A DNA stretch of 32,525 bases from a bacterium (GTDB lineage Bacteria > Armatimonadota > Zipacnadia > Zipacnadales > UBA11051): assembly GCA_030604405.1 (NCBI GenBank), contig JAUVVY010000013.1, positions 67,267-99,791 on the forward strand, in the 5' to 3' direction. The first letter of the stretch is position 1, and each line of letters begins with the position of its first letter. The translations under genes were made by a program, and so were the position numbers. A model generated the notes under the pieces. The model saw nothing but the letters and a program-made list of their open reading frames with translations, was not told the origin of the DNA and did no database searches. This document shows, in pieces, positions 2,685 through 25,495 of the stretch.

Positions 2685-3980
2685 ATGCCAAGCTTGCGAG
2701 TGTACAACGCCATCGTTTTGACCATGGTTTCCGGCGACGAGCCCATATCGCCGGCGGAACTTGTCAGTGCGGACGGGCAGATTGAGTATGTCGGACCCCA
2801 GAGAGCGGATATTGAAGAGAGCTATGATGAGACCATTGACGCCGGCGGGGGAGTGCTGCTGCCCGGGCTTGTCAACGCCCACACGCACCTGGCGATGACG
2901 CTTATGCGCGGTTATGCCGATGACATGCCCCTGCAGGAGTGGCTGACGACCAAGATATGGCCCACTGAGGCGAAGCTGCAGGAGCAAGACGTCTATTGGG
3001 GGGCGATGCTGGGGATCCTGGAAATGCTGCGGGCGGGCATAACCTGCTTTTGCGACATGTACCACTTCTTCAACGCAGGCACCAGGGCTGCCATAGACGG
3101 TGGCATTCGCGCTCTGCCTTCCGGGGTACTGCTGAGCTTTGCCGACAAAATCTACAATGTGGAGCAGGCTGTGGAATTCGCTCTGGAGGTGCGCAAGAAT
3201 GCTCCTTCGCGCATCGTGCCCATGCTGGGCCCGCATGCGCCGTATTCGTGTACCGATGAGATGTTGCGGCAAGCCGCCGCTGCTGCCGCCGAGCATGGCC
3301 TTGGCATTCACATACACCTGTCAGAGACCGCCGACGAGGTGCAGCAGGTGCTGGATGCGACCGGCATGAGGCCGGTGGCGTATCTGGACAAGCTCGGCCT
3401 CCTGGACAATCATGTCACCGCCGCCCACTGCGTGCACGTGGACGATGCTGAGCTCGAGATGCTGGCCGACAAGCAGGTCGGTATCGTACACTGCCCGACC
3501 AGCAACATGAAGCTGGCTTCGGGATTTGCGCCGGTGTTGAAGATGTTGGCTGCAGGTGCGTGTGTGGGCCTGGGTACGGACGGTGCGGCTTCCAACAATC
3601 GCCTGGACATGCTGCAGGAGGCGCGAATGGCCGCGCTGGAACACAAGGCCCACAGCGGCGACCCGGGCGTGGTGAAGGCCGAAGAAGCGTTGCGCATGGC
3701 CACGGTCGGCTCTGCCCGGGCGGTGGGGCTGGGCGACCGGGTCGGCATGTTGCAGGTCGGCAAGCGGGCCGATTTTACGATGATCTCGCTGCAGGAGGCC
3801 CATAACCAGCCGCTACACAACCTGTACTCACAGCTAGTCTACGCCGCCGAGGCCGCCGATGTGGTATGTACCGCAGTGGACGGCGTGGTGCTTTATCGCG
3901 ATGGAGTTTACCCTCATTTGGACGCCAAGCACATCATCGCGCGGGCCAACGAGTGCGCCCACCGCCTGGTTAACTCGTAG
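2685..3980 (+). CDS. mtaD: 5'-methylthioadenosine / S-adenosylhomocysteine deaminase
   Basis: A 431-residue amidohydrolase-superfamily enzyme that removes the 6-amino group of methylthioadenosine or S-adenosylhomocysteine, giving the inosine analogues. Metal and catalytic residues are all visible: N-A-H-T-H (H66, H68), G-P-H-A-P-Y (H184), H-L-S-E-T (H211, E214), A-A-H-C (H248) and L-G-T-D-G-A-A-S-N-N (D299), the last being typical of the MtaD/SsnA/TrzN group. ATG at 2685 is preceded by GGAG; an out-of-frame ATG lies at 2681. It heads an apparent operon with miaA (8 bases downstream) and hfq. The MTAP/PNP-family enzyme at 16837-17583 could use its product. Substrate preference among MTA, SAH and adenosine cannot be read from sequence. 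Confidence 0.9.
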   Translation: MPSLRVYNAIVLTMVSGDEPISPAELVSADGQIEYVGPQRADIEESYDETIDAGGGVLLPGLVNAHTHLAMTLMRGYADDMPLQEWLTTKIWPTEAKLQEQDVYWGAMLGILEMLRAGITCFCDMYHFFNAGTRAAIDGGIRALPSGVLLSFADKIYNVEQAVEFALEVRKNAPSRIVPMLGPHAPYSCTDEMLRQAAAAAAEHGLGIHIHLSETADEVQQVLDATGMRPVAYLDKLGLLDNHVTAAHCVHVDDAELEMLADKQVGIVHCPTSNMKLASGFAPVLKMLAAGACVGLGTDGAASNNRLDMLQEARMAALEHKAHSGDPGVVKAEEALRMATVGSARAVGLGDRVGMLQVGKRADFTMISLQEAHNQPLHNLYSQLVYAAEAADVVCTAVDGVVLYRDGVYPHLDAKHIIARANECAHRLVNS

Positions 3981-8991: not shown

Positions 8992-10362
8992 GTGGACAAA
9001 TCAACAGATGCAGCCGAGCGTGACCTGCTGGTTCCGCTGAATCGGCGCAACTATTTGTTGACCATCGCCAACGGCGTAATTTTCATCCCCGGAGCCCGCC
9101 TCGTCGCTCCCGGCACAGTGCTTCCGCTGCTTATCCTGCGGCTCTCCTCCGGCCTGACATGGCTCATCGGGCTTGCAAACAGCATCCTGTACGTCGTGCC
9201 CGTCCTGCCACAATTGCTCGCCTCGCGCTGGGTTGACACCAGTAAGCGCAAAGTCCCGATATGGCGTTGGTGCGCGGTAGTCAGGTTCATCGCCACCCTT
9301 GGCATGGGATGGGCCGTGCTATCCGCAACCAGCACGGGATATGCCTATGCGCTGGTGGCGTTCTTTGTGTGGTTGACCGTCCGGGTGCTCGCTCAGGGCG
9401 TCTCCAGCCTCGTGTTCACCGACATCGTCGCCCGCTCTGTCCCTACCACCAAGCGAGGCAGCATATGGATGTGGCGGCAACTTCTCGGCCTCTTCCTGGT
9501 CCTAACTTTCTCCGTGCCCGTGATCAACTACATGCTGAGCGAGAAGACCCTCTTCAAGTTTCCCACCAATTACGGCTTGCTCCTGGTGGGCTCGGCACTG
9601 TTCATGGGCATTGCATGGATCATCTTCTCCTTCACCGAGGAGCCGCAGGGCAAACCGGCCGGCCACAAGCTTACGATGGCACAGCATCTGGCCCGCGGAA
9701 TGCGATTCCTCAACCGCGACAAGAGCTACCGCCGGCTCATGCGCGTGCGCATACTGCTCAGTGCCGCTGCCAACGTCAGTCCCTTTTTTATCGCATTCGC
9801 CGTGCAGGAGTGGCATTTTCACGACGTGGTGGCTGCAACCTTTTTGACTGTTCAGATACTCTCGCAGATGCTGGGTTGCTGGATCGTCGGGCACGTCTCT
9901 GACCGGCTCGGCAACCGCAAGGTACTGGTGCTTGCAGCCGCCACGATGCTCGTAACCGCAACTGTGGCCTACCTTGGGGCCTCGTTTACTCCCGAGGGCG
10001 CTATTGTGCTGCTGGGCTACCCGGTCTCGTACCGCCTGATTGTGCTGATGGTCTGTTTTGTCGGCAGCGGCCTGTTTGCGGCAGAGCTGTATCCCGGATA
10101 CATCAACTACCTCATGGACATCGCTCCGCGCCGAAAACTTCCCTCATACGTGGGCTTCGCCAGCTTCTTCTTGCTGCCACTCGGGGCGGTCCCGCTGGTG
10201 TACGGGTGGCTTGCTCAGACCGTCGGCTATCGGGCCATCTTCATCATCGCCTTGCTGCTTTCCGCCGTTGGGCTCCGACTGGCATCCCGTATCGGCGAGC
10301 CACGCGACGAACTCACCAATGATGTGACAAATGACGAAAGCGACTCCCGCGCAGAGGAGTAA
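8992..10362 (+). CDS. MFS transporter, first of a tandem pair
   Basis: A 456-residue membrane protein with about 12 hydrophobic segments. An MFS-type loop S-D-R-L-G-N-R-K is present after the middle of the chain, and L-A-S-R-W-V-D-T-S-K-R-K in the first half occupies the equivalent position. Starts at GTG 8992 with AGGAA nine bases upstream. It is clearly homologous to the next gene: both begin with a 16-residue stretch ending in L-V-P-L and continue with R-R-N-Y, and both contain T-T-K-R-G-S and P-G-Y-x-N-Y-L-M-D-I-A-P. The substrate is unknown. The acidic C-terminus (last 20 residues) is not shared with the paralogue. Confidence 0.82.
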   Translation: MDKSTDAAERDLLVPLNRRNYLLTIANGVIFIPGARLVAPGTVLPLLILRLSSGLTWLIGLANSILYVVPVLPQLLASRWVDTSKRKVPIWRWCAVVRFIATLGMGWAVLSATSTGYAYALVAFFVWLTVRVLAQGVSSLVFTDIVARSVPTTKRGSIWMWRQLLGLFLVLTFSVPVINYMLSEKTLFKFPTNYGLLLVGSALFMGIAWIIFSFTEEPQGKPAGHKLTMAQHLARGMRFLNRDKSYRRLMRVRILLSAAANVSPFFIAFAVQEWHFHDVVAATFLTVQILSQMLGCWIVGHVSDRLGNRKVLVLAAATMLVTATVAYLGASFTPEGAIVLLGYPVSYRLIVLMVCFVGSGLFAAELYPGYINYLMDIAPRRKLPSYVGFASFFLLPLGAVPLVYGWLAQTVGYRAIFIIALLLSAVGLRLASRIGEPRDELTNDVTNDESDSRAEE

Positions 10363-10392
10363 CGGGGCGTGGCCGAGAAGCACCCGTAATTG

Positions 10393-11751
10393 ATGCCAGA
10401 TATGTCAGACTCCACAAGTAGTCGCGAAAGTGAGATGCTGGTTCCGCTGCACCGGCGGAACTATATCCTGGGGATCATCAACGGGATACTGTTCCAGACG
10501 GGCTACCGCCTGGCCGACCCGATGACTGTACTGCCGCTGCTACTGATCCGCCTATCGGGTGTGACGTGGATTGTCGGGCTGTTGCAGGCGATCATCATAA
10601 CCGCCCCGGCCGTGCCGGCGATATTGGCCTCTCGCTTCATAGACACCGCCGAGCGCAAGTTGCCGATCTTCAACTTCTACAGCGTCATCAGGTTCCTGGC
10701 GCTGATGGGGATGGCGCTAGCGGTGCTGGCGGGTGGCTATTTGAGCGGCGTGCTGCTGGCGGCGCTCTTGCTATCCCTCTTCGCGATATGGCTTAGCGCA
10801 CAGGCCGTCAGCACCATGGCCTTCATGGACATAGTGGCTAAGTCAACGCCTACGACAAAGCGCGGCAGCTTCTGGATGTGGCGGCAGATGATCGGCCTGT
10901 CTCTGGTGCTGACGGTGGCGGTGCCGCTTGTCCACTATCTGCTGGGAGACAACTCCCCGGCCGAATTCCCGGCCAACTACGGCCTTCTGCTATTGGGCAG
11001 CGCCTTGATCCTTGGCGCTTCGTGGCTTGTCTATTCGCGGGTCAAAGAGCCGCCGAGCAAGCCGGCCCGCCACAAGCTCACAGTGCGGCAAAACATCGCC
11101 CGTGGCCTGGGCTTTTGGCGTCAGGATCTCAGATACCGCCGGATGGTCAGAGTGGTTCTGCTGCTGGCCTCTGCAGGTGCAGTCGGGCCGTTCTTCATGG
11201 CTCTGGCCGTGCAGGAGTGGGATTTCCCCGACACGGTCGCAGCCACATTCGTGACAGTGCAGATTCTCGCCCAGATGGCCGGCAGCATCCTCCAGGGGCG
11301 CGTCTCCGACCGCCTCGGCAACCGCAAGGTGCTCATATTCGCCTCATTCACCGGCTTTCTCGCCGCACTCGTGGCTGTGTTCAGCGCAGCGTTCGCCCCG
11401 GCCGGTGGCATGGACGTATTCGGCTACACGCTCTCCTACCGGCTGCTGTTGCTGTGTATCTGCTTTGCGGGCAGTGGGTTTTACACCGCGCAGTTATGGC
11501 CGGGGTACATGAACTATCTGATGGATATTGCCCCGGAACGCAAGCGTCCCTCCTATTTCGGCTTCACCAACCTCTTCCTCCTGCCCGTAGGCGTCGTGCC
11601 TCTGATATTCGGCTGGCTCGCACAAACCGTCAGCTTCCAGATCGTATTCGGCATAGCGGCCGTTATAGCCGCTGCAGCGGCTGTACTTTCTCTGCGCATA
11701 AAGGAACCACGTGACGACCTCACCGCCGACCAGTTGCAGGCCCTCAGCTAG
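10393..11751 (+). CDS. MFS transporter, second of a tandem pair
   Basis: About 452 residues with about 12 hydrophobic segments and the MFS loop S-D-R-L-G-N-R-K-V-L. It is a paralogue of the preceding gene and starts 30 bases after it, so a tandem duplication is the simplest origin. I give the first ATG (10393), but the ATG at 10402 may be the true start because from there M-S-D-S-T lines up exactly, 16 residues before the shared L-V-P-L, with the paralogue's first Met. No strong ribosome site precedes either. Two similar transporters might form a heteromer or have split substrates; the sequence does not say which. Confidence 0.82.
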   Translation: MPDMSDSTSSRESEMLVPLHRRNYILGIINGILFQTGYRLADPMTVLPLLLIRLSGVTWIVGLLQAIIITAPAVPAILASRFIDTAERKLPIFNFYSVIRFLALMGMALAVLAGGYLSGVLLAALLLSLFAIWLSAQAVSTMAFMDIVAKSTPTTKRGSFWMWRQMIGLSLVLTVAVPLVHYLLGDNSPAEFPANYGLLLLGSALILGASWLVYSRVKEPPSKPARHKLTVRQNIARGLGFWRQDLRYRRMVRVVLLLASAGAVGPFFMALAVQEWDFPDTVAATFVTVQILAQMAGSILQGRVSDRLGNRKVLIFASFTGFLAALVAVFSAAFAPAGGMDVFGYTLSYRLLLLCICFAGSGFYTAQLWPGYMNYLMDIAPERKRPSYFGFTNLFLLPVGVVPLIFGWLAQTVSFQIVFGIAAVIAAAAAVLSLRIKEPRDDLTADQLQALS

Positions 11752-11799: not shown

Positions 11800-11857
11800 C
11801 CTCGGCCTTGTCTCAAAACATTGAACTGCTGCAACCACTTTCTGACGGGTAGCTCGG

Positions 11858-12058
11858 CCTGAGCTTTGTTCCGTCTGCAAAGCTCAGGTGAGAATGCCTC
11901 AGCATTCTCCGCTTCCCGTTCGACAGGCTCACGGCCCTGAGCTGAGTTCGCTTGCGAACTCCCGTCGAAGGGCAGCCCGAGGCGGCCTCTCAACAACTCG
12001 CTTCCAGTGAGCGCAAGAAATGATCTACTGGCTATTCCCGCAGTACGCGCCCTGCCAG
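11858..12058 (+). repeat. Composite multi-hairpin repeat, copy 1
   Basis: In order: an 11-bp hairpin (11858-11868 with 11878-11888), an 8-bp hairpin GAGAATGC / GCATTCTC (11890-11897 with 11902-11909), the conserved bridge GCTTCCCGTTCGAC, then the nested TTCGAC/GTCGAA and GCTCA/TGAGC stems (11919-11969). An extra GAGTTCG / CGAACTC hairpin sits inside (11944-11961). From 11969 to 12058 a further roughly 90 bases match the copy at 14165-14253 with about a dozen differences. The hairpin part shares its architecture with 25228-25350. Confidence 0.8.
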
Positions 12059-12163
12059 ATGACCAGACATTCCCGACTCTGTACTCATCGATTATCGTCA
12101 GCAGCCGCAGGGGCTGGCAGTCATGCGTCCTGGCATGCATGAAGTCATAGCGCCGCACAGGGC

Positions 12164-12192
12164 TTGACAGCGTGGCCTGGCGGTGTCATCAT
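12164..12192 (+). promoter_or_regulatory. Weak candidate promoter of the lipoprotein gene
   Basis: Perfect TTGACA at 12164-12169 with CATCAT (4 of 6 matches to TATAAT) at 12187-12192 after 17 bases. It lies about 130 bases before the start codon. Confidence 0.35.
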
Positions 12193-12324
12193 TGCGGGAA
12201 CCGAACGGACGTCGCGCTGCACTGAAGCGACCGCTGGGCGCATGTACCCTGTGCATCGCAGCGTGAAAGGGTGAGTGCGGCGCAGCTAGCGAGTAGCTGT
12301 TGATTTCAAAAAGGAGGAGTTAAC

Positions 12325-13878
12325 ATGTCCAGGATCTTACTTGCTGTAGTTGTGGTCGGCATATTGGCATTGAGTTTTTTCGTTCCAGGTTGTGGAGGGA
12401 ACGGATCTACACCAAGCCCGGACGAGGGTGCCGGAGGCACAGTGATGGTGCGAGTTACGGATCCCAACGGCACGCCACTGGCCAACGTGAGCATGTCGCT
12501 GGCAGGCACGACGAGTACCAGTGACGCGCAGGGGCACCTGCGCTTGGAGGGCATCAGCCCGACAACCGGCGCACTGGCGAACTTCGCTGTCGATGGTCAC
12601 GTATCCACGGCGAGGAGGGTGGACGTCATAGCCGGCGAGGAGCTGACGTTCGATGTGATGATGGTGCCGGTCGGGACAACTCAGACTATTGACACCGCCG
12701 TGGAAAGGGAAGTGTTACACGCCGGCGGCGGCATAATAATCCCCGCGGACGGAGTCGTTGACGCTGCAGGCAATCCTGTCAGCACGGCACAAGTTCAGGT
12801 GACTACGGCGCTCCCTAGCGATCCCGGATACACGTCATTTTTCCCCGGGCCCTTCATTGGCAGCCGGGCAAGTGATGGCGAAGAAGGCCTCCTTCTAAGC
12901 CACGGGTTCGTGGACGTGGTCCTGCAGGACGCCAGCGGGAACTCATTGCAGCTTGCGCAAGGCAAACCGGCAGAGATGATCTTCCCCATTGATGCGGATC
13001 CAGACTCAGAGCCAAGCCAGGACACCGTCCCGCTCTGGTACTATGATGTAGCCCAGGGAATATGGATTGAAGAGGGTACGGTCACGCGCGACGCTGCCGC
13101 TGGTGTCTACCGGGGCAGCGTGACCCACGTGACGCCCTGGAACGTGGACTACTGGCAGGCTCCGGCGTTCAAACGAGTCACCGTGATAGACCTGAATGGC
13201 GATCCCGTCGTCAGTGCTTGGGTGACTGTGGCACCGGCTACTGGCGGCGCCTGGTGGAGCGTGGACGTTACGGATGCCAACGGCCAAACCAGCGTGCTAG
13301 TCCGACCCAATAGTCCCATTCGAGTGTGGGTCCAGAAGGGGACGGTGGTTTCGCCTGTCACAACGGACACATCTCCTGGGATAGGTCAGACGCTGGACAA
13401 CACGATTACGATCGATCCCGCGCCAGCCGTCATAACGCTCACTTGGGGCGCCAACCCGCAGGATCTCGACCTTCATCTCACGGTGCCGACAACTCCGGGC
13501 CGCTCGCACATCTACAAGACGAGCCTGGGCTCGCCCACTCAGTTGCCGTATGCGGTTCTGGACGAAGACGTTACGACGGGTCTTGGCCCGGAGGCGATCT
13601 CGGTACGCCGCCTGCTGCCCGGCACGTATCGCTGCGCTGTCCACAACTACTCCGGCCAAACCCAAGCATTAGGGATTTGCAACTCCAACGCCGGCGTCGC
13701 CCTTGTCATGCCGGACGGCGTGAACACGTCGTTTATCCCTCCGGCACACAACGAAAATCACATGGACAACAACGTCTGGCTCGTCTTCGACCTGGTCGTG
13801 GCCGAGTCCGGCCTGTCTGTCACGGTCAATCCGCTCAACTCTTGGGGCACGACCGGTGACTACCATCCCGCTGATTGA
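12325..13878 (+). CDS. Large multi-domain lipoprotein (carboxypeptidase-regulatory-like and DUF2135-like)
   Basis: 517 residues, with an excellent ribosome site (AAAGGAGGAG) before ATG 12325. A lipoprotein signal peptide ends at V-P-G-C, with C23 as the modified residue (Pro at -2 is slightly unusual). Residues 38-115 look like a carboxypeptidase-regulatory beta-sandwich (D-P-N-G-T-P-L-A-N-V). Residues 130-276 resemble FAM171-type or cell-surface modules in other bacteria, ending in V-T-H-V-T-P-W-N-V-D. A second regulatory-like domain is at 284-365. The C-terminal part (370-510) carries T-W-G-A-N-P-Q-D-L-D-L-H, resembling DUF2135/YfaP domains. Probably a surface or periplasmic protein; I cannot assign a function. 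It is flanked by direct repeats. Confidence 0.8.
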   Translation: MSRILLAVVVVGILALSFFVPGCGGNGSTPSPDEGAGGTVMVRVTDPNGTPLANVSMSLAGTTSTSDAQGHLRLEGISPTTGALANFAVDGHVSTARRVDVIAGEELTFDVMMVPVGTTQTIDTAVEREVLHAGGGIIIPADGVVDAAGNPVSTAQVQVTTALPSDPGYTSFFPGPFIGSRASDGEEGLLLSHGFVDVVLQDASGNSLQLAQGKPAEMIFPIDADPDSEPSQDTVPLWYYDVAQGIWIEEGTVTRDAAAGVYRGSVTHVTPWNVDYWQAPAFKRVTVIDLNGDPVVSAWVTVAPATGGAWWSVDVTDANGQTSVLVRPNSPIRVWVQKGTVVSPVTTDTSPGIGQTLDNTITIDPAPAVITLTWGANPQDLDLHLTVPTTPGRSHIYKTSLGSPTQLPYAVLDEDVTTGLGPEAISVRRLLPGTYRCAVHNYSGQTQALGICNSNAGVALVMPDGVNTSFIPPAHNENHMDNNVWLVFDLVVAESGLSVTVNPLNSWGTTGDYHPAD

Positions 13879-14227
13879 GCGCGGGCGGCGAAGTAACAGC
13901 TTGGTGAAGCGGCTTTGAGGTGAGAATACCCGCTAAAAGGGAATATCAGACGGTGCGACAGGTGAGCCAGGACTATCGGCGCATCGAACGGCCACCTGTC
14001 GTCTTGCTTGGCTGCGAAAGCTGGGAGTTGCCTTGCTTGGTTGGGCGCTACCGTGCCCTGAGAGCGTTTTCCCAGGCCCATCTCGAATTATTCACCAATA
14101 CGTGGGTCAATTCTCAGCTTCCCGTTTGACCGTTCGACAAGCTCACGGTGCTGAGCAACGTCGAAGGGCAGCCCGAGGCGGCCCCTCAACAACTCGCTCT
14201 CAGTCAGCGCAAGCAATGATCTACTGG
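13879..14227. other. 349-base gene-free stretch with repeat copy 2
   Basis: Lies between the lipoprotein gene and the end of the PIG-L gene. The right-hand half is the second copy of the composite repeat. The left-hand half contains only weak inverted arms (around 13990-14080); I see no gene or promoter. Confidence 0.55.
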
Positions 14228-14253
14228 CTACTGCGGCAGTAGGCGCCCTGCCT
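14111..14253 (+). repeat. Composite repeat, copy 2 (direct repeat of 11910-12058)
   Basis: Carries TTCTCAGCTTCCCG, then the TTCGAC/GTCGAA (14133-14138 with 14160-14165) and GCTCA/TGAGC stems, then about 90 bases closely matching 11969-12058 in the same orientation. The upstream hairpins of copy 1 are degraded here. The distal 25 bases are inside the PIG-L reading frame and provide its last residues and stop codon. Confidence 0.8.
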
Positions 14254-16721: not shown

Positions 16722-16760
16722 TCTAGATCCTCGCGTAGCTCAGGCTTCATAATAATTAGC

Positions 16761-16790
16761 CCGTGGGTCGGGCTTCCAGCCCGACTCCGT
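16761..16790 (+). repeat. GTGGGTCGGGC hairpin repeat
   Basis: CCGTGGG followed by the hairpin TCGGGCT / AGCCCGA (16768-16774 with 16778-16784, loop TCC) and CTCC. Same family as 20903-20920, 20974-20990 and 25384-25400, with different but still pairing arms. Confidence 0.8.
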
Positions 16791-20761: not shown

Positions 20762-20800
20762 AGTCCTCAGTCCGTCGAAAGCCTCAACGCACCCAGGCAA

Positions 20801-20997
20801 CGCCATCTATTCATCGCGTGGCTCGGGCATCCCAAATATATTTGCGTGGGAATGTCTTTCTGTTATGGGGTGGCTCGACCATCTCAAGCATATCTCCGTG
20901 GGTCAGGCTTTCCAGCCTGACAATGCCGTCTATTTGTCCCGTGGCTCGGGCATTCCAAATATATTCCCGTGGGTCGGGCATCCTGCCCGACTCCGTT
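20801..20997 (+). repeat. Cluster of three 33-base repeats with paired hairpins
   Basis: Three 33-base units starting GTGGCTCG and ending CGTGGG lie at 20818-20850, 20870-20902 and 20941-20973. Units 1 and 3 are nearly identical and share the preceding CTATT; unit 2 is more diverged. Units 2 and 3 are directly followed by hairpins, TCAGGCT / AGCCTGA (20903-20920) and TCGGGCA / TGCCCGA (20974-20990). Spacing between units is irregular (19 and 38 bases between ends and starts). The cluster fills the gap between two convergent genes. Confidence 0.8.
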
Positions 20998-25194: not shown

Positions 25195-25495
25195 TTTGCC
25201 CGCATCATTCGCAAATACGTGGCTCGGCTTGAGTTGTGCCCAACGCACAGCTCAAGGGAGAACGGAGAAAGCCTGGCTTTCTCCGTTCTCAGCTTCCCGT
25301 TCGACCCTTCGACACGCTCAGGGCAGGCAGCGTGGTGAGCTTGTCGAACCGCAGCCTGACAATGCCTCTTATGGTTTCCGTGGGTCGGGCATCCTGCCCG
25401 ACTCCCTTACCCAGCATGCATTTTTTGCCTGGTTGATTACGAGGGCAGGTGAAGTGGCCTGGCAGAACGAAAGGCTGTACGGGAGTGAACGCCGG
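25195..25495. other. 301-base gene-free stretch filled by repeats
   Basis: From 25228 to 25405 it is a chain of repeat hairpins (see next entry). The last 90 bases are the leader of the coiled-coil gene with no clear promoter. An open frame runs through, but only from 25496 does it encode a plausible protein. Confidence 0.55.
25228..25405 (+). repeat. Composite multi-hairpin repeat plus GTGGGTCGGGC hairpin
   Basis: Hairpin 1: 25228-25239 with 25245-25256, 12 bp with one wobble. Hairpin 2: 25258-25271 with 25277-25290, 14 bp perfect (GAGAACGGAGAAAG arm). Then AGCTTCCCGTTCGAC and a third hairpin with TTCGACACGCTCA / TGAGCTTGTCGAA arms. Finally GTGGG and TCGGGCA / TGCCCGA (25384-25390 with 25394-25400). 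The order of the first three parts is the same as at 11858-11969. Confidence 0.82.

Follow-up and report, generated by a model that had tools for sequence, protein, structure and literature searches.

The window, by which we mean the whole 32.5-kb stretch of the 4.37-Mb genome G000 analyzed here, contains two full copies of a palindromic element, at 11846–11981 and 25216–25360, and a truncated third at 14099–14177. Two adjacent, related MFS-type transporter genes occupy 8992–10362 and 10390–11751 and are tandem paralogs (9775–9926 and 11182–11333 are 73% identical). The adjoining section, 11810–14240, is absent from the sister species G001, where the PIG-L gene directly follows the MFS gene; it is composed of a lipoprotein-like ORF (12325–13878, with a CarboxypepD_reg domain) lying between two elements, and it includes 94-nt direct repeats (11963–12056 and 14159–14252) that are 90% identical.

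The two full copies share one layout (Table 1), in which an unpaired head (CGxGTAG or CGTGG) is followed by outer arm CTCGG, hairpin 1, hairpin 2, the sequence GCTTCC, a TTCGAC insert, and a closing arm. Both fold as a four-way junction in which the outer stem and the two hairpins are joined by a third arm, GCT-TCC-AGC, with a separate TTCGAC palindrome inserted in it. The calculated single-stranded DNA folding energies are −40.6 kcal/mol (z = −5.4) for copy 1 and −42.2 kcal/mol (z = −5.3) for copy 2, with none of 200 shuffles as good, and the minimum-energy single-stranded DNA fold of both these copies and of a copy that flanks a RAYT (REP-associated tyrosine transposase) gene is the junction with its head free. 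In copy 3, hairpin 1 is missing and only the 3′ arm of hairpin 2 is left, a kind of truncation that L225 also shows.

An earlier note on this DNA had described hairpin 1, a GAGAA/TTCTC hairpin 2, a bridge, and a TTCGAC hairpin in the same order in two places. That order is indeed present at both loci, but the outer stem and the head were overlooked, so that the element begins 12 nt earlier than was described, and the truncated third copy was also missed. The statement that the hairpin arms differ almost completely was too strong, since the junction-proximal bases TGAG/CTCA (hairpin 1) and GAGAA/TTCTC (hairpin 2) are common to both copies and only the outer parts of the arms differ; the hairpin 2 stem of copy 2, given as 14 bp, is one base pair longer (Table 1).

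Table 1 Features of the element copies and simple REPs in the window
Feature	Start	End	Strand	Basis
Copy 1, unpaired 5′ head CGGGTAG (GTAG tag)	11846	11852	+	All 25 aligned copies have GT[AG]G
Copy 1, outer stem 5′ arm CTCGG	11853	11857	+	
Copy 1, hairpin 1, 11-bp stem CCTGAGCTTTG/CAAAGCTCAGG	11858	11888	+	
Copy 1, hairpin 2, 8-bp stem GAGAATGC/GCATTCTC (11890–11909); the family's basal T-A pair is T.C here	11889	11910	+	
Copy 1, GCTTCC, 5′ side of third arm; TTCGAC element insertion point directly after	11911	11916	+	
Copy 1, TTCGAC palindromic insert, within which lies a GAGTTCG/CGAACTC hairpin (11944–11961)	11917	11973	+	
Copy 1, closing arm AGCCCGAG: AGC plus outer stem 3′ arm CCGAG	11974	11981	+	
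Copy 2, MITE-1-type left terminal repeat CCCGCATCATTCGCAAA	25199	25215	+	Similarity to ends of other MITE-1 carriers
Copy 2, head TACGTGG	25216	25222	+	
Copy 2, outer stem 5′ arm CTCGG	25223	25227	+	
Copy 2, hairpin 1, 12-bp stem CTTGAGTTGTGC/GCACAGCTCAAG	25228	25256	+	
Copy 2, hairpin 2, 15-bp stem GAGAACGGAGAAAGC/GCTTTCTCCGTTCTC	25258	25290	+	
Copy 2, GCTTCC	25292	25297	+	
Copy 2, TTCGAC insert: a TTCGAC unit nested within another TTCGAC unit	25298	25352	+	
Copy 2, closing arm AGCCTGAC: AGC plus outer stem 3′ arm (degenerate)	25353	25360	+	
Copy 3, truncated: GAATTATTCACCAA as left terminal repeat, then the TACGTGG head followed directly by the hairpin 2 3′ arm (ATTCTC), GCTTCC, TTCGAC insert, AGCCCGAG	14085	14177	+	
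Simple REP (GCGTAGGTCGGGCTTTCC...AGCCCGAC) that shares the outer-stem type and has a TTCGAC element exactly in its loop	6247	6316	+	
Simple REP GTGGGTCGGGCTTCCAGCCCGAC, consisting of the outer hairpin alone	16763	16785	+	

The repeat family and its pairing

Searches by BLAST and with a 25-copy covariance model indicate that the window's genome carries about 77 copies (77 strong matches; all copy counts rest on such model searches). The core is 79 nt long and reaches 120–230 nt with inserts. A MAFFT alignment of the 25 copies, made without use of structure and after removal of the TTCGAC inserts from long copies, contains four helices with no unpaired base between them, namely the outer stem, hairpin 1 (11 bp), hairpin 2 (9 bp), and GCT-TCC-AGC. 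Standard pairs fill 98.6% of the pair cells of this alignment, two-sided changes occur in 13 pairs (3.9 on average after shuffling, sd 1.2), and registers slid out of place are all at most 46% paired. The earlier note had proposed such a model search, and genome-wide the copies do retain both the pairing and the fixed order, whose loss would have refuted its proposal, with two-sided changes above the shuffled level. The 94 distinct matches from outside the window's genome give 300 two-sided cells vs 78, and 49 matches from within it give the same pairing result, in alignments that were fitted to the model and are therefore biased toward it.

In the head, G4, T5, and G7 are invariant among the 25 copies and position 6 is A or G. 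The outer stem itself co-varies (CTCGG/CCGAG, CGCGG/CCGCG, GTCGG/CCGAC, and CACGG/CCGTG), which may reflect only a few founder events, since the two main stem types differ in their flanks as well. The element is extragenic: a simple ORF picker places 104 of 109 copies outside long ORFs. Where full copies lie in tandem, they end in GCTTCCAYAAAA ahead of the next head (L029, L142, and L159).

Among 61 relatives, two other species of the genus are rich in the element (at least 77 and 68 matches), two more genomes of the genus lack it, and seven genomes from other families of the order carry it. The named relatives are all MAGs; some of the genomes searched are fragmented, with contamination figures of their own that reach 9%, which makes repeat assembly uncertain. 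A spaced-pattern scan of 84,980 species genomes matched Candidatus Zipacnadia and Armatimonadota MAGs as well as a single contig labeled Rhodobacter (L151); the latter contains no covariance-model match at E 1e-4 and is probably a chance pattern match. Judged by these searches, the four-armed element appears to be found only in Armatimonadota, plus the one unconfirmed contig.

Site turnover and arm exchange in a sister species

The flanks of the elements in G000 and G001 are ∼90–93% identical, and 15 sites could be compared by locating the G001 site from flanking sequence alone and scoring it by reading the alignments, some of them incomplete, together with a table of aligned lengths. Five of the 15 are intact in G001 (L043, L048, L024, L026, and L027), and at the remaining ten the element is absent, truncated, or replaced. 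L007/L232 provides a clean empty site, where G001 has AATCTAAGCCGGGGATACAG and G000 has AATCTAA, the unit, and then CTAGACCAGG. A unit is also absent in L023/L176, and in L017/L227 a simple REP stands in G001 in place of the element.

Hairpin 1 has been replaced whole at two of the orthologous sites (CCTGACCTGCGCTAAGCGCAGGTCAGG in L048 vs CCTGCCCTGAGCCTGTCGAAGGGCAGG in L223, and CCTGACCTGTGCTTGGCACAGGTCAGG vs CCTGAGTGTGGCGCCCTTTGCCATACTCAGG in L026/L233). At others a palindrome has been inserted: GGGTACCCACGCC...GGCGTGGGT in the hairpin 2 loop (L043/L221), another in a loop of L024/L229, and a TTCGAC element after GCTTCC (L056/L158). The arms thus change as wholes. The earlier note had taken the covariation between its two copies as the sign of a conserved structure; the pairing is kept, but to infer selection from it is too simple, because a whole-hairpin replacement or a palindrome entering a loop yields perfect pairing without stepwise compensatory change. 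Since whole hairpins are exchanged at orthologous sites, we take much of the stem “covariation” to be module replacement.

MITE carriers and the RAYT link

Many copies lie inside ∼230-bp MITE-like units that have terminal inverted repeats and 4-bp YTAR-like target duplications and of which the element forms the 5′ part. Such a unit opens with a left end (e.g., AGCCCGAATAATTCACAAAA); the element comes next, then a body (GGTCGTTGGGGTGATTACAGTGTGTCATTTTGCG...), and last a right end (..TTCACTCATGAATAATNCAGGCTA). The ends CCCGAATAATTCAC and GTGAATAATNCGGG are particular to the MITE-1 carriers. Target duplications are clear in seven cases, CTAG (L205 and L156), TTAG (L207 and L163), CTAC (L211), CTAA (L176), and TTAA (L170), and in many of the other copies the 4-bp flanks are unequal or have diverged. 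YTAR target duplications resemble those of IS5-type elements. By these features the longer carrier unit is, to all appearances, a MITE.

The cross-shaped part might then be no more than the palindromic 5′ part of a terminal-inverted-repeat transposon, unrelated to REPs and RAYTs. The full-length units with terminal repeats and target duplications fit this explanation, as do the empty sites, which correspond to the whole MITE unit. However, the module keeps its limits (CGCGTRG ... CCGxG) in no fewer than three kinds of flanking sequence, of which two have no MITE-1 ends (the second is ..CCTCTGA / TCACCATCGGCAAGCTCCACGCTAAACA in L030 and L059, and the third is AAAGA / GAATGCCGTT), and it also lies on both sides of a RAYT gene; therefore it is not merely part of one MITE. 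In addition, its GTRG head and outer stem are those of the simple REPs that flank the RAYT gene of the window's genome. We consider a purely MITE origin rather improbable, although it deserves to be kept in mind. A literature search on cloverleaf MITEs found none.

The window's genome has a single RAYT gene (L031 1411–1896), whose product scores 110.3 bits against NCBIfam NF047646 (cut-off 80) and has the HUH and Tyr motifs PDHVHFF and YVRDNPVRA. Plain 23–24 nt REPs with the element's head and outer stem are present in the window, and the simple REPs of the genome (CGCGTGGGTCGGGCTTTCCAGCCCGAC) include two beside this gene. Behind the gene, at L031 1898–2123, a different GTAG palindrome (GTAGGGCGCGGGCTTGTACCGCGCC) forms a 33-bp tandem array that reaches the contig end. 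G001 has seven RAYTs, and one of these (L110 3295–3771, G001:C420; 87.6 bits, above the cut-off) lies between elements at 3797–3875 and 3068–3146, with a third element in the opposite orientation at 2936–3027. If the density in G001 is ∼80–100 copies in 4.3 Mb (an estimate; at least 77 matches are listed), three copies within ∼1 kb of one RAYT are very unlikely to have arisen by chance, though elements do sometimes cluster. Short tandem head-like repeats (GTCGCGTGGC..AAAACAAAC, ∼22 bp) are also present on the head side of the RAYT-flanking elements (L110 3150–3280 and 3876–3960).

When the window's genome was searched for a RAYT of the element-flanked G001 type, the best match was its own RAYT, only 35% identical and flanked by simple REPs; with no close relative found there, the cognate transposase may have been lost in that genome, may be unassembled, or may be different. 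No element copies adjoin the RAYT loci examined in G002, G019, G025, G026, G033, G035, and G036. The presence of a RAYT was also considered as a predictor of the element and proved uninformative: 45 of the 61 relatives have one, including nine of ten element-positive and 36 of 51 element-negative genomes. In G033 (L122, G033:C50), a RAYT domain lies in frame within a long ORF that resembles a DNA methyltransferase (motif DPFCGGGSIPLEAQRLG).

Mobile DNA accounts most economically for these findings, and we think it likely that the element is a mobile, non-coding palindrome built on a GTAG-type REP, with interchangeable hairpin arms, that is mobilized by a RAYT. A mobile palindromic unit was among the possibilities raised in the earlier note, and it is well supported by the many copies, their patchy distribution, the empty and replaced sites, the flanked RAYT, and the MITE ends with their target duplications. 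The outer REP-like stem (e.g., CTCGG ... CCGAG) holds two or three hairpins, so that a single strand folds as a four-way junction, and the arms are exchanged or are entered by other palindromes (the TTCGAC element or the GGGTACCC... palindrome), while the junction-proximal bases stay fixed. On single-stranded DNA, a RAYT-type HUH/Y1 transposase would recognize the foot of the outer hairpin, once folded, together with the GTRG head, as has been proposed for REPs. Self-complementary inserts would leave head, outer stem, and foot intact and so would be tolerated in an element that stays functional; such tolerance would allow the loops to collect palindromes, with each replaced arm again perfectly paired. 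Hairpins are probably exchanged when copies recombine or undergo gene conversion with one another, the conserved CCTG..CAGG and GAGAA..TTCTC sequences serving as anchors. Copies borne on MITEs would move by a transposase other than the RAYT. The clean insertions observed are of the MITE unit and not of the bare cross-shaped element, and for this reason RAYT-driven transposition of the element itself is only inferred. Tentatively, and with rather less confidence, the element could represent a class of palindromes that transpose as single strands, in which a conserved four-way-junction chassis carries interchangeable hairpin cassettes, the RAYT reads only head and junction, and evolution proceeds by whole-arm swaps.

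Stem conservation and relation to known elements

In five other orthologous pairs of G000 and G001, changes were found at 0 of 284 stem, 9 of 72 loop, and 90 of 1116 near-flank positions (8%). The G001 loci of this set were found by an exact pattern that fixes ∼23 positions per copy, so about 170 stem positions were free to vary, with no changes where ∼14 would be expected; since the pairs were chosen because both copies matched, the conservation figure is an upper bound. The absence of stem changes suggests constraint or correction beyond passive carriage, and selection, recurrent correction from the other arm, or conversion between copies are possible sources.

Correction of one arm from the other by template switching during replication could produce perfect pairing by mutation and not selection, and such events have been described for RNA hairpin genes (PMC8794818). 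A given stem can indeed carry its loop in either orientation (CAA/TTG, CTC/GAG, CAG/CTG, GTTA/TAAC, TACA/TGTA, and CGA/TCG), which hints weakly at this process, but the excess is slight (6 vs ∼2.6 expected in hairpin 1, P 0.09; 6 vs ∼2.1 in hairpin 2, P 0.07). Furthermore, arms at orthologous sites have been replaced by sequences of other copies, which switching within one hairpin does not give. As the whole explanation template switching is therefore unlikely, though it may act alongside mobile DNA with exchangeable arms. Among the distinct hairpin 2 tetraloops, 16 of 36 are GNNA, considered as possible stable tetraloops, a count not controlled for shared ancestry.

The earlier note also raised a structured RNA; this might be, for example, a 3′ UTR stabilizer, a terminator, or a small RNA, kept by selection on RNA folding. 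The strong pairing and covariation, the prediction of the hairpins by RNA folding as well, and the unchanged stems in the five orthologous pairs (vs 8% change in flanks) are all in its favor. On the other hand, the element matches no Rfam family (an Rfam scan of the window gave one tRNA only), its orientation between tandem genes is nearly balanced (33 co-directional vs 20 opposed), orthologous sites have whole-hairpin swaps and palindrome insertions, and most sites are absent, truncated, or replaced in the sister species. For a typical copy (L012) the minimum-energy RNA fold is not the four-way junction, whereas the DNA fold is. We regard an RNA function as quite doubtful. Still more improbable is a protein-bound cruciform, the third possibility in the note, or a nucleoid site kept for chromosome organization, as proposed for REP/BIME sites, since the many extragenic copies and strongly conserved stems that would suit it are set against sites that turn over fast between sister species and an element absent from two genomes of the same genus.

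The closest known kind to the mobile element proposed here is the GTAG-type REP with its RAYT. REPs are 20–40 bp long with one stem, families GTAG-3 and GTAG-14 have extra self-complementary loop sequence, GTGG tag variants are known, and GTAG-tagged REPs with RAYT genes are called “REPtrons” (Di Nocera et al. 2013, PMC3733652). The element resembles them in its unpaired GTAG/GTGG tag beside a palindromic stem, in the alternative complementary stem residues within the family, in its many extragenic copies, and in having a RAYT gene flanked by the repeat (one of the seven in G001). It differs in that its stem is not that of a 20–40 bp single stem-loop but forms the base of a four-way junction that holds two or three more hairpins, in that its arms are exchangeable cassettes, and in that it also rides in MITEs with terminal inverted repeats and target duplications. 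REPs with self-complementary loops are thus already known (PMC3733652), but the literature searched gave no description of a four-way junction with exchangeable arms.

Like MITEs, the carrier units are short, non-coding, and numerous, with terminal inverted repeats, 4-bp target duplications, and empty sites in a relative, but the REP-like element also occurs outside MITE-1 ends. Like BIMEs and REPINs (PMC3116915), it is a composite palindromic repeat, dispersed between genes and linked to a RAYT, but it has one GTRG head and one outer stem with the hairpins inside, and its 3′ end is CCGAG without CYAC or an inverted second head. As in Rfam structured RNA families, the pairing survives two-sided changes; unlike them, it shows no Rfam match, no clear strand preference, whole-hairpin exchange, and rapid site turnover. 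RNA discovery should take warning from this, as a module-swapping mobile DNA palindrome can yield strong covariation statistics without being RNA. The family also provides a natural series, with orthologous before/after pairs, that shows how complex repeats grow out of REP palindromes, and it gives biochemists a RAYT whose partner is unusual in having several arms.

The TTCGAC repeat, on which a literature search found no paper, is widespread within other palindromes both in the window's genome and in G001. At 16733–16785 and 20800–20991 of the window, half-unit arrays (head, 5′ arm, and CTTC(C)AtAAT.. repeated) are each followed by a complete simple REP.
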